The position numbers and the translations under genes were made by a program. Below, one piece after another: positions 21 through 27,683 of a stretch of 27,683 bases of DNA (the first letter of the stretch is position 1; each line of letters starts with the position of its first letter). Origin of the DNA: a virus; the IMG/VR virus record IMGVR_UViG_3300021376_000283, positions 1-27,683 of that record. One strand, given 5' to 3'. The notes under the pieces were generated by a model. It had not been told where the DNA came from. It saw only the letters and a list, made by a program, of their open reading frames with translations, and searched no databases.

Positions 21-1196
21 ATGGGGCAAGCGGTGACGCTGCTGCACGGCGACTGCCTTGCGGTGCTGTGCGAGTTGCAGGACGCGAGCGTGGACGCGGT
101 AGTCACCGATCCGCCGTACGGTCTGTCGTTCATGGGCAAGAAGTGGGACTACGAGGTGCCGAGCGTCGAGGTGTGGCGCGAGTGCCTGCGCGTACTGAAG
201 CCCGGCGGTCATCTGCTCGCCTTCGCGGGTACGCGCACGCAGCACCGCATGGCGTGCAACATTGAGGACGCGGGCTTCGACATCCGCGACATGATTGCGT
301 GGGTGTACGGGAGCGGCTTCCCGAAGTCGCTCGATGTGAGCAAGGCGATCGACAGGGCGGCAGGGGCGAAGCGCGAGGTGGTAGGAATGTCTGCGCGTCA
401 TGGTGGTGGTGCAAAAGTTTTTGAGAATCAGGGCGGGACTGGATTTGCAACAAACGGCAAGCCTGACATCACCGCACCCGCGACCGACGCAGCGAAGCAG
501 TGGGCGGGATGGGGTACTGCGCTGAAGCCTGCGATGGAGCCGATCACCGTGGCGCGGAAGCCGCTGATCGGCACGGTCGCGGAGAATGTGCTGCGGCACG
601 GCACGGGTGCGATCAATGTGGACGGGTGCAGGGTGGGGACGGAGGATGATGATGATTATGGGCGAAGCGCGGCGGGAGCGGATGGGAAAGTGAATAGCGG
701 GATATGGAGCAATGGGGCGCGTCCAAAGTTTGAACAGCAGGCGCACTCTCAAGGTCGCTTCCCCGCGAACATCATCCACGACGGCAGCGACGAGGTGGTG
801 GGGCTGTTCCCGCAGACGGAAAGCCAACAAACGCGGTTTCGCGTGAAGGGGCGGAGTGCAGGCATTCTTGGCAAAGAAGGTGCGGACAGAGACTATATCG
901 GCGGATTCAACGACAGCGGTTCCGCTGCTCGCTTCTTCTACTGTGCGAAGGCGAGCAAGCGCGACAGGGACGAAGGCAACCACCATCCCACCGTGAAGCC
1001 CACCGACCTGATGCGCTACCTCTGCCGACTCGTCACGCCACCGAACGGCATCGTGCTCGACCCGTTCATGGGAAGCGGCAGCACAGGCAAGGCGTGCGCG
1101 CTCGAAGGCTTCCGCTTCATCGGCATTGAGCGCGAGGCGGAGTACATCGAGATCGCCGAGCGTAGGATCATGGCATGTCAGACATCGAGCCGCTGA
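21..1196 (+). CDS. Site-specific DNA methyltransferase (amino-methyltransferase, beta-type motif order)
   Basis: This 391-aa protein should transfer a methyl group from S-adenosylmethionine to the exocyclic amino group of adenine or cytosine in phage DNA. The catalytic motif DPPY is at residues 30-33. The SAM-binding motif LDPFMGSGSTG is near residues 346-356, so the catalytic motif comes before the SAM motif, as in beta-class N6-adenine/N4-cytosine enzymes. The roughly 200 residues between the common N-terminal block and the C-terminal SAM block probably form the target-recognition region. The reading frame stays open to the window edge, and GAGG touches the ATG too closely to be a good ribosome site, so the true start may lie upstream. 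It overlaps the next gene by 22 bases. Sitting beside the terminase genes suggests late expression and protection or marking of DNA before packaging, which is inference. No restriction endonuclease partner is visible. Confidence 0.93.
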   Translation: MGQAVTLLHGDCLAVLCELQDASVDAVVTDPPYGLSFMGKKWDYEVPSVEVWRECLRVLKPGGHLLAFAGTRTQHRMACNIEDAGFDIRDMIAWVYGSGFPKSLDVSKAIDRAAGAKREVVGMSARHGGGAKVFENQGGTGFATNGKPDITAPATDAAKQWAGWGTALKPAMEPITVARKPLIGTVAENVLRHGTGAINVDGCRVGTEDDDDYGRSAAGADGKVNSGIWSNGARPKFEQQAHSQGRFPANIIHDGSDEVVGLFPQTESQQTRFRVKGRSAGILGKEGADRDYIGGFNDSGSAARFFYCAKASKRDRDEGNHHPTVKPTDLMRYLCRLVTPPNGIVLDPFMGSGSTGKACALEGFRFIGIEREAEYIEIAERRIMACQTSSR

Positions 1197-23720: not shown

Positions 23721-24490
23721 GACACAGTGATTCGATCGCACAACTCGCAGCCGCGCTCGCAAAGGCGCAGGCTCGCATTCAGCCTGCCGTCAAGGATCGG
23801 GTCAACCCGCACTTCCGCTCGCACTACGCGACGCTCGAAGCGATCGTCGAAGCCTGCCGGGAAGCACTGGCGGCGAACGATCTCGCCGTCCTGCAACTCC
23901 CATGCGACGATCCGAACTGCGAGCGCGTCGCGCTCCGCACCATGATCGTGCACAAGAGCGGCGAGTTCATCGAGGAGGCGGTCAGCGCACGGCTCGTGAA
24001 GAACGATCCGCAGGGACTGGGGAGCGCACTCACCTATCTCCGACGGTACGCCCTAGCAGCGATCGTCGGAGTGACCGCAACCGAGGACGACGACGGCAAC
24101 GCAGCGAGCGCACCGCAGCAGGTGCAGCGCGTACAGCCGAGCGCACCACCTCCGACCGCTGCACCGCGCATCACGCCGACGATCGTCGGCGACACGCAGG
24201 TGTTCACGGGAATCCTGGCGTATGTGAAGAGCGAGCAGGGAACGAGCAAGGCGGGAAAGCAGTACACGAAGACCCGCGTGGGGTGGACCGACGACAGCGG
24301 CGAGAAGGTGTATGCGAGCACCTTCTCGGAGACAGACGGCGCGTTCGCCAACCGTGCGAAGACGCAGGGCATCCCCGTGCGCGTCACCTACCGCACGGGC
24401 GAGCGTGGGGTCGACGTGATCTCGATCGACACTGCCGAGCAGGTCAGCGCAGTGGAGGCGATGGGAGGCGAAGATGTCATTCCATTCTGA
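23717..24490 (+). CDS. ERF-family single-strand annealing recombinase with OB-like domain and SSB-like tip
   Basis: This 257-aa protein shows the ERF family pattern in residues 1 to about 128: LAAALAKAQARIQPAVKDRV, NPHFRSHYATLEAIVEACR and GSALTYLRRYALAAIVGV, with EDDDGN after it. ERF proteins anneal complementary single strands during phage recombination and replication. A proline/alanine linker (about 129-157) leads to residues about 159-245, which look like an OB fold (VFTGILAYVKSEQGTSKAGKQY, then VRVTYRTGERGVDVISID). The last residues, EDVIPF, resemble the acidic SSB tip DDDIPF that recruits replication and repair proteins. The ATG at 23717 has ACAGGAGAGACAC before it; the open frame upstream is not used. 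Confidence 0.9.
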   Translation: MRHSDSIAQLAAALAKAQARIQPAVKDRVNPHFRSHYATLEAIVEACREALAANDLAVLQLPCDDPNCERVALRTMIVHKSGEFIEEAVSARLVKNDPQGLGSALTYLRRYALAAIVGVTATEDDDGNAASAPQQVQRVQPSAPPPTAAPRITPTIVGDTQVFTGILAYVKSEQGTSKAGKQYTKTRVGWTDDSGEKVYASTFSETDGAFANRAKTQGIPVRVTYRTGERGVDVISIDTAEQVSAVEAMGGEDVIPF

Positions 24491-25361: not shown

Positions 25362-26138
25362 ATGAGCAATATACCAGAGAGCAAAGCACCGTGGATGAAA
25401 CTGTGGGTCGCCGACTTCGTGTCGAGCACCTACGCGATGACCCCGGCGCAGGTCGGAGCGCACTTCCGCATGATGCTCCACGCATGGGAGCGCGGCGATG
25501 TGCCGACCGACCCGTCGGCACTCAGGCGCATTACGGGTGACATCGACGAGGGCGAGATGGCCGAGGTGCTGCGGCGATGGCAGCGTGACGGCGATCGGCT
25601 AGTCAACAAGCGGCTCGAAGCCGAGCGTCACGAGATGATCGACCTGCACGACCGCAGAAGCGAGGCGGGTCGCCGTGGGAGTTTCCGCAGATGGCAAACC
25701 CATAGCAAACCTATAGCAAACGGTATGGCAAACGGTATGGCAAACGGTATGGCATGCTCAGATGCTCAGATGCTCAGAGGCTCAGATGCACAGAACCCAG
25801 ATGCACAGACACACCATCAGCACGGAGCGTCTGCCAAGCCAGCCGCTCGTGCTCGTGGTGGGGTCACATTCGACTATGCGACTGGACGGATGGACGGGAT
25901 CACGGACTCGCACCGAGAGCGGTGGGCAGCCGCGTACCCGGCGGTGGAGATCGAGCAGCAGGTGAACGCAGCGGCAGCGTGGCTCGCAGCGAACCCGAAG
26001 CAGCGCAAGAAGAACATCGAGCGGTTCCTGACGAACTGGCTCGCAAGACAACAGGAACGCGGCGGCGTGCGGCAGCACCGTGTATCCTCCATCTCGCCGC
26101 GCACGATCGACGAGGTGCCCGAGCACCTCCGCTTCTAG
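25362..26138 (+). CDS. Replication initiator / helicase-loader-like protein (DUF1376-like N-terminus)
   Basis: This 258-aa two-domain protein has an N-terminal part (about residues 9-90) reading MKLWVADFVSSTYAMTPAQ, then GAHFRMMLHAWERGDVPTD. This is the winged-helix-like DUF1376 (YdaU) pattern found in phage replication proteins. The C-terminal part (about 165-245) has RERWAAAYPAVEIEQQVNAAAAWL and KNIERFLTNWLARQQ, typical of the helicase-loading or primosome end. The linker (about 108-150) is encoded by tandem DNA repeats and is low-complexity (PIANGMANGMANGMA and so on). This matches lambda O, where the origin lies inside the initiator gene. The ribosome site is weak (GAGAGG about 14 bases upstream). 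Confidence 0.78.
   Translation: MSNIPESKAPWMKLWVADFVSSTYAMTPAQVGAHFRMMLHAWERGDVPTDPSALRRITGDIDEGEMAEVLRRWQRDGDRLVNKRLEAERHEMIDLHDRRSEAGRRGSFRRWQTHSKPIANGMANGMANGMACSDAQMLRGSDAQNPDAQTHHQHGASAKPAARARGGVTFDYATGRMDGITDSHRERWAAAYPAVEIEQQVNAAAAWLAANPKQRKKNIERFLTNWLARQQERGGVRQHRVSSISPRTIDEVPEHLRF
25693..25754 (+). repeat. Tandem (A/G)GCAAAC repeats with 11-12 base spacing (iteron candidate)
   Basis: (A/G)GCAAAC starts at 25693, 25704, 25715, 25727 and 25739, with a partial sixth (GGCA) at 25751. Spacing is 11, 11, 12, 12 and 12 bases. The core GCAAAC is read in three different codon phases within the gene, so DNA rather than protein is repeated. About one turn of the helix per unit suits a protein-binding array. 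Confidence 0.85.
25754..25808 (+). repeat. Tandem 8-base ATGCTCAG repeats
   Basis: ATGCTCAG occurs three times in a row (25754, 25762, 25770), then AGGCTCAG (25778), ATGCACAG (25786), AACCCAG (25794, 7 bases) and ATGCACAG (25801). The period of 8 is not a multiple of 3, so the encoded residues differ between copies. It directly follows the GCAAAC array. Confidence 0.85.
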
Positions 26139-26146
26139 GAGACGAC

Positions 26147-26764
26147 ATGAGAGACGACATCACATGGGAAGACAACGAGAAGGCGATCCGCGACCTCTGG
26201 CCGACCGCGATGTACCCGGCAGACCTGAGGGACCTGATCAAGCGGCAACTCAGCAGACTGAACCAAGCATGGCTGCGCGAAGCGATCGAGGAGGTGAAGT
26301 GCAAGTTCGCATCGCATCAGCCTGAGTTGAAGTGGTGGCTGCAGGCATACGAGCGCATTGAGGCGCGGTGGTTCAAGACACAGCCTGCTGTCACGACTGC
26401 ACGACCGATCATCGTGGATCACACTCGCGTACGACATGGCACGACCTACGAGGTGTCGAGCATCTTCTTCTCGCTCGAAGAGGCGGTCGCCTTCGCTCGG
26501 AACTGCGGCGGCAGCATCCGAGGTCGGCGACACACCCAAAGCGATGACGATCTTCGTGCTGAGATCCGCGCTCTGCCACGCGAGCAGATCAGCGCAGCGG
26601 TCGCATGGCTGCGCCAGCGCATGTGGATCGGAAGCGAGCCAGTGAGCGGAGACTTGGCGAAGTGGTCGCCTGCTCTGCTCGGCGCGATCGCAGGCGCACT
26701 CGATGTTACATCTCGTACCCTCCGCGTACCCGCAGCACTGCCACCCGCAAAGGAGACACCATGA
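26147..26764 (+). CDS. Early-region protein, unknown function
   Basis: This 205-aa protein starts 8 bases after the initiator-like gene with GGAG at 26138-26141. Its first half contains a helical charged segment (AIRDLWPTAMYPADLRDLIKRQLSRLNQAWLREAIEEVKCKFAS) and a tryptophan-rich patch (LKWWLQAYERIEARWF). The second half has FSLEEAVAFARNCGGS and a third helical region with EQISAAVAWLRQRMW. Following an initiator or helicase loader, a replication-related partner is plausible, but no family is recognised. The stop overlaps the next ATG. The longer open frame from 25754 is a shadow. Confidence 0.75.
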   Translation: MRDDITWEDNEKAIRDLWPTAMYPADLRDLIKRQLSRLNQAWLREAIEEVKCKFASHQPELKWWLQAYERIEARWFKTQPAVTTARPIIVDHTRVRHGTTYEVSSIFFSLEEAVAFARNCGGSIRGRRHTQSDDDLRAEIRALPREQISAAVAWLRQRMWIGSEPVSGDLAKWSPALLGAIAGALDVTSRTLRVPAALPPAKETP

Positions 26765-27283: not shown

Positions 27284-27683
27284 ATGAATCAAGGCGAAAT
27301 GAGTATCGAGTTCGTGAATAGTGCACAGGCAGTCAGTTTTTTCATCGAGAAGGTCGGAAGCCAGACCAAACCTGCGACCGTGGTTCGTGAGGTGATCATG
27401 AACGCAGTCGAGGCAAATGCGACGAAGATCGAGATCGACTGGGACCCGCAGTTCGACAAGTTGGGCGTGAAGAAGTTGAGGATCAGCGACAACGGCGACG
27501 GCATGTCCGCAGGCTTCTGGATGAGCAAATGCAATCTATTTGCAAGTGGCAAGGAGCAGGCGAGCGATAAGAACTACGGCATCGGTGGCAAGATGGCTGG
27601 TTTGTGCCACCACCCGAACGGGGTGATCTATGTGTCATACCACTGCGGTGAGGTGTTCACGGGAACGATTTATCGAGATGAGG
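27284..27683 (+). CDS. GHKL-type ATPase (HATPase/Hsp90-MutL-MORC fold), cut by the window end
   Basis: At least 133 codons are present and the gene continues past the window. The Bergerat ATP-binding fold is visible: the N-box with E36 and N40 in REVIMNAVEANA, the G1 box DNGDGM at 69-74, and a G2-like GIGGKMAG at 99-106. AAGGAG at 27272-27277 with 6-base spacing supports the ATG at 27284. It resembles stand-alone phage and bacterial HATPase proteins of the Hsp90/MutL/MORC group rather than sensor kinases, since no dimerisation or receiver part precedes it. The role is open: DNA handling, anti-defence or host takeover. The domain after the ATPase lies outside the window. Confidence 0.85.
   Translation, partial: MNQGEMSIEFVNSAQAVSFFIEKVGSQTKPATVVREVIMNAVEANATKIEIDWDPQFDKLGVKKLRISDNGDGMSAGFWMSKCNLFASGKEQASDKNYGIGGKMAGLCHHPNGVIYVSYHCGEVFTGTIYRDE

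Follow-up and report, generated by a model that had tools for sequence, protein, structure and literature searches.

A putative replication origin formed by phased repeats in the linker of a phage DUF1376 gene

The DUF1376 gene and its neighbourhood

The window analysed here, i.e. the whole stretch of 27,683 nucleotides, is a linear 27.7-kb virus record from IMG/VR (IMGVR_UViG_3300021376_000283) with terminase, portal and head genes at its left side. On its plus strand, at positions 25362..26138, an open reading frame encodes a protein of 258 aa, to which we assign the putative role of a replisome organiser. The initial annotation described this protein as DUF1376-like and helicase-loader-like; the former assignment is borne out by a match to the PF07120 (DUF1376) profile (E 1.2e-7, 32.5 bits against the curated cut-off of 30.1, residues 10-88), while the latter found no support. 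The protein also matches phrog_3992, annotated as 'primosomal protein' (residues 7-232, E 9e-12), and has a close homologue in a single viral contig (hereafter L002).

Directly downstream, at 26147..26764 (plus strand), lies a gene for a 205-aa protein, in the slot taken by DnaC-like or putative replication genes in relatives: the gene order in a related Pseudomonas phage is cI-cro-cII-DUF1376-DnaC, and in a Rac phage relative ydaU is followed by ydaV, which encodes a putative replication protein. Searched via the ORF that contains it, the 205-aa product matched neither a Pfam nor a PHROG family at E 0.1, and its only relative found is encoded by the neighbour gene on the same contig as L002; we regard it as a candidate for an unrecognised loader. 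The cI-cro-cII-DUF1376-DnaC context, together with the 'primosomal protein' match, supports a role of the DUF1376 gene product as initiator. At 27284-27683 the window holds the start of a further gene, truncated at the window end, in which motifs resembling those of GHKL-type ATPases (EA..A, DNGDGM, GIGGKMAG) can be discerned by eye.

According to the Pfam match and to an AlphaFold2 model computed from 62 related sequences, the protein begins with the DUF1376 domain (residues 10-88, 25389..25625, plus strand), presumably its DNA-binding part. Residues 21-110 are modelled with pLDDT values mostly of 92-97 as helices, two short strands forming a hairpin and then a long helix. Comparison of this predicted domain with PDB chains returned only weak similarities (best Z 6.1), with winged-helix proteins (the C-terminal domain of ORC2, MarR, CRP, FadR, a Rep-DNA complex) mixed with unrelated chains; since the matches are weak and the list is mixed, a winged-helix fold of the DUF1376 domain is plausible, not established. 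Among solved structures, none matches the DUF1376 part by sequence, and hits to DnaT arise from the C-termini of relatives. The domain is followed by a stretch predicted to be disordered (residues ~115-169, 25705..25868, plus strand), which holds most of both arrays described below and where the amino acid identity to the L002 protein is lowest; its pLDDT, still 74 in the block 111-120, stays under 50 at residues 122-134 and 136-169.

The C-terminal module (residues 168-235, 25863..26066, plus strand) was delineated by its likeness in tblastn to the C-terminal part of Orf73, the replication protein O of Pseudomonas phage D3 (33-37% identity within residues 146-253, E 6e-5 to 3e-3). A beta-beta-alpha3 fold is predicted for it by AlphaFold2 with moderate confidence, below that of the N-terminal domain, and it presumably recruits a helicase or a loader. 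At E 0.1 the window protein matches neither PF17948 (the DnaT-like C-terminal domain) nor PF04492 (Phage_rep_O), the latter of which does match D3 Orf73; by profile, the window protein thus does not belong to the Phage_rep_O (lambda O) family. The C-terminal modules differ among DUF1376 genes: a PF17948 DnaT domain is found in L033 and, weakly, in L157, while the module of L034 appears by eye similar to that of the window.

Two repeat arrays in the linker

The first array (25692..25757, plus strand) comprises five GCAAAC words, starting at 25694, 25705, 25716, 25728 and 25740, and a degenerate sixth, GCATGC, at 25752, as the initial annotation had described; we interpret them, from their spacing and from comparison with shuffled sequences, as putative initiator-binding iterons. 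The steps of 11, 11, 12 and 12 bp are near whole helical turns, and the words are read in all three frames (codon phases 0, 2, 1, 1, 1). It had been claimed that the periods are not multiples of three, which holds for the 11-bp steps and for the 8-bp array but not for the 12-bp steps, owing to which the last three words fall in one frame and encode the protein repeat ANGMANGMANGMA. The array is the strongest period-12 run in the whole 27.7 kb, and the longest chain of a 6-mer at 11-12 bp spacing has five members in the window, compared with two (99 times) or three (once) in 100 first-order Markov copies of it. When synonymous codons were shuffled with the protein kept fixed, the 11/12/22/23-bp repetition of the gene was retained as significant at p = 0.002, the floor for 500 shuffles.

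The second array (25754..25809, plus strand) follows at once, with about seven 8-bp units of the CAGATGCT type, likewise in agreement with the initial count: Tandem Repeats Finder (TRF) reports 7.1 copies with an 81% match, and the CAGA cores are spaced by 8, 8, 8, 8, 7 and 8 bp. It is the strongest period-8 run of the window, with a best period-8 score of 24 against 12 in the 100 Markov copies. The GC content of the two arrays is 48% and 52.5%, as compared with 64-66% in the parts of the gene on either side, and the lowest 60-bp GC at the arrays lies within the bottom 2% of the window; a mild low-melting region is therefore present. The initial annotation saw no clearly AT-rich unwinding element next to the arrays; the second array itself, at 52.5% GC, is not truly AT-rich (the corresponding runs are clearly lower in GC in many relatives). 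The GC skew along the window does not switch at the arrays, which on a linear 27.7-kb fragment speaks neither for nor against an origin.

Viral contigs were searched for close relatives with the protein as a query and with two-sequence and five-sequence alignments, and the only close contig found was L002, whose protein is 74% identical to that of the window and matches PF07120 with 35.4 bits. In place of GCAAAC it has five WTGCYA words at steps of 12, 11, 12 and 12 bp, and its second array is of the CAGAAGAG type, with CARA cores at the same seven gene positions as in the window (398-445), so that the register 8,8,8,8,7,8 is kept while the letters differ. Downstream of the linker the two DNAs are near-identical, while most linker residues differ. 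The initial annotation had held that repeats conserved among diverged linker residues in relatives would support its reading, and this is what L002, which keeps the spacing while letters and residues change, and the DUF1376 family at large both present. The concerted change of the units from CAGATGCT in the window to CAGAAGAG in L002 suggests, in turn, a contribution of slippage or conversion to the form of the second array.

Repetition and codon conservation across the DUF1376 family

To see the arrays in the context of the family, the nucleotides 240-480 of 93 non-redundant DUF1376 genes from viral contigs and bacterial genomes were scored for self-similarity against synonymous-codon shuffles, and 59 DUF1376 genes of environmental phages, fetched afterwards, were treated with identical settings. 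In the first set, self-matches at lag 11 number 667, about six times the 107.6 +/- 16.6 of the shuffles (z 34); harmonics appear at lags 22, 23 and 33-35, while lags 13, 14, 17, 19 and 20 stay near 1x; p<=0.05 at lags 11/12/22/23 is reached by 67 of the 93 genes, as against 8 at control lags. The second set gave 6.4x at lag 11 (z 27) and 43 significant genes out of 59, with 3 at control lags, and in both sets together the peaks fall at 11-12, 22-24 and 33-35 bp. The threshold at these four lags is missed by 26/93 and 16/59 genes, respectively. Neighbouring genes, taken as a control (147 ORFs, those containing N left out), show 1.14x at lag 11. Thus, the repeats are real and are maintained as DNA, as initially claimed for the window, with the shuffling of its gene and the family-wide signal in agreement.

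The words fall into two dominant classes, AGCAA/GCAAA, to which the window belongs, and CAACG/AACGG; words very similar to those of the window occur in L171, L199, L214 and L237. The similarity of words follows that of the DUF1376 domains overall (Mantel r 0.41), but below 45% domain identity the signal is absent (r -0.01, p 0.585), so that the comparison does not demonstrate that words and domains co-evolve. In all genes that allowed scoring of both elements (45/45 in the first set, 17/17 in the second), the words are followed downstream by the short-period run, and its GC content is below that of its own gene in 49/53 and 15/17 cases. The unit of the run varies by lineage (AGAAG, ATACAG, TTCACC, CAATCA; in the window, as in L002, it has 8 bp), and some DUF1376 genes have no clear run. 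A regular expression for 6-bp CAC/ACAG tracts, applied to the second set, did not separate the linker (10/59) from the domain (9/59), so that only part of the genes in this set show a clear short run. Across the DUF1376 family, the order and the spacing of sites and tract are preserved. Both fall within the linker that separates two predicted domains, which is also where the initial annotation had placed the arrays of the window. Some linkers carry, beside the expected origin, an additional segment: in L106 (2001-3095) and L109 (2001-3050) it resembles by eye a T5orf172/GIY-YIG-like nuclease domain, and in L153 (1983-3086) an HNH-like one.

Codon conservation was analysed in the N-terminal 170 codons of an enterobacterial and a pseudomonad group of 24 genes each, and these results refer to gammaproteobacterial phages rather than to the lineage of the window, represented by one relative. 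In the iterons and the run, the normalised excess of codon identity rises to 0.92-0.94 at an amino acid identity of only ~0.3-0.8, while in most of the DUF1376 domain it is ~0.1-0.5 at an amino acid identity of ~0.75-1.0; among the analysed 170 codons, those of iterons and run are the most conserved for a given residue. Neither protein constraint nor slippage, taken alone, would readily account for such a pattern. In L013-L022 and similar genes we also observed, at gene nucleotides ~165-205 and hence inside the DUF1376 domain, AACG..CGTT-type sites at 11-bp steps, with raised synonymous conservation in the gammaproteobacterial genes (codons ~55-66). The origin of such gammaproteobacterial genes may be bipartite, with its parts ~150-200 bp apart.

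A putative origin within the initiator gene

Taken together, we consider it probable that the two arrays constitute the replication origin of the phage, which would thus lie within the gene for the phage's own initiator, with the DUF1376 domain binding the words, the adjacent tract opening and the C-terminal module bringing a helicase or a loader. The initial annotation had read them as the phage origin, and L002, the family-wide pattern, the gene context and the primosomal match speak for it; origin function itself we infer from these data and from analogy. The mechanism we envisage is modelled on the origins in gene O of lambda and Stx phages and on oriL of SPP1. The DUF1376 domain would bind the GCAAAC words, which, being about one helical turn apart, lie on one face of the DNA, and would thereby build a nucleoprotein array; this array would strain the adjoining short-period, lower-GC 8-bp tract, causing it to open; and the C-terminal module would then bring the helicase or its loader, as suggested by the O-like module of D3 and by the DnaC-like neighbours in relatives.

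The second array had initially been proposed as a site for another protein, e.g. the product of the gene at 24474, for which we found no support; the position of this array, constantly on the downstream side of the words, and its reduced GC content agree better with an unwinding tract. A more specific variant, to which we give limited credence, is that the short-period run of DUF1376 phages could be a repeated element for capture of the single strand, equivalent in phages to the DnaA-trio and built of units of 5, 6, 7 or 8 bases that differ between lineages, read by the initiator or the loader after opening; a step of 8 bp does not match the helical repeat but would suit stepwise movement along single-stranded DNA.

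Linkers tolerate change, the runs of 5-6 bp resemble microsatellites, and the units of the second array change in concert between the window and L002, as slippage or conversion would give, so that the arrays might be taken for by-products of replication slippage or tandem duplication in a residue-tolerant linker, devoid of any function as DNA. We find this quite unlikely, as slippage provides no reason for peaks at 11-12, 22-23 and 33-35 bp with lags 13, 14, 17, 19 and 20 at background in both sets, nor for the mixing of 11 and 12 bp steps within single arrays, the invariant order of words and run, or the conservation of synonymous positions there in orthologues above the rest of the analysed part. 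Selection on the protein, with the repeats serving as a repetitive spacer peptide, is very improbable, even though three words encode ANGM repeats and relatives have linkers such as DTDTDT or PSPSPS: the words are read in three frames, the linker ranks among the least conserved parts in its residues while its codons are the most conserved, and the residues of L002 differ at similar spacing.

In place of an origin, the words might form a set of sites at which the DUF1376 protein or some other regulator of the phage acts in autoregulation, partition or copy control. Binding of sites alone would leave an identical signature in the sequence, and iteron arrays of plasmids also serve in control. Yet the words lie inside the linker of the putative initiator and not at a promoter, the lower-GC run adjoins them always on one side, and in lambda and SPP1 there are known cases of an origin located in the gene of its initiator, which makes a purely regulatory role unlikely in our opinion. 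If the arrays are indeed origins, a large uncharacterised family of phage and prophage proteins, DUF1376, gains a function as origin-binding initiators, and every DUF1376 gene would hold an origin of its own whose location can be predicted, making candidate origins of many phages and prophages readable from sequence alone. The family would also supply a large number of naturally occurring pairs of DNA-binding domain and site in which changes of initiator specificity could be studied, and would extend the design of an origin inside the linker of its initiator to a domain outside the lambda O family profile.

Origins within initiator genes are already known; in the open-access literature, outside which most subscription journals fall, we found no report of origins in DUF1376/YdaU genes, no functional data for any DUF1376 protein and no description of the DUF1376-wide arrangement of phased sites and run in the linker. 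A comparable case from within the family is YdaU of the E. coli Rac prophage, a DUF1376 protein whose gene is followed by a putative replication gene, ydaV; in Rac-SA53, repetition at 11/12/22/23 bp is significant in the linker of YdaU, which also holds an ATACAG run. An origin of Rac, oriJ, is known to be active (PMC3945230) and may or may not coincide with ydaU. Orf73 of Pseudomonas phage D3, in a lambda-like gene order with a gene for a DnaB-like helicase in the next-gene slot, shares with the window protein only the C-terminal module, its N-terminal domain being Phage_rep_O, and TRF detects no tandem arrays in its gene.

In lambda and Stx phages, the origin occupies the middle of gene O and is made up of iterons followed by an AT-rich tract, and the O protein combines N-terminal DNA binding with C-terminal partner binding across a flexible linker (PMC6022878, PMC7466680), an organisation that is predicted for the window protein as well. 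The two systems differ in the N-terminal domain (Phage_rep_O, PF04492, in lambda O; DUF1376 in the window), in the sites (four 18-bp dyad iterons in lambda, words at 11-12 bp in DUF1376 genes) and in the tract, which in DUF1376 genes, unlike in lambda, is made of short tandem units. In iteron plasmids, helically phased direct repeats, whose phasing matters, lie beside a low-melting region as in the window, but they bind monomeric plasmid initiators, while the array of the window is inside the coding sequence of a putative phage initiator (PMC5043065). In SPP1, oriL comprises direct repeats and an AT-rich unwinding element within gene 38 (PMC6316719), and gp38 is thus like the window protein, with direct repeats and a (here putative) unwinding element in its own gene, although SPP1 has a second origin, oriR, and the likeness is one of architecture, with no sequence relationship seen. 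What the window has in common with SPP1 and lambda is a feature of this type of origin, an array of repeated sites inside the gene of the (here putative) initiator itself.
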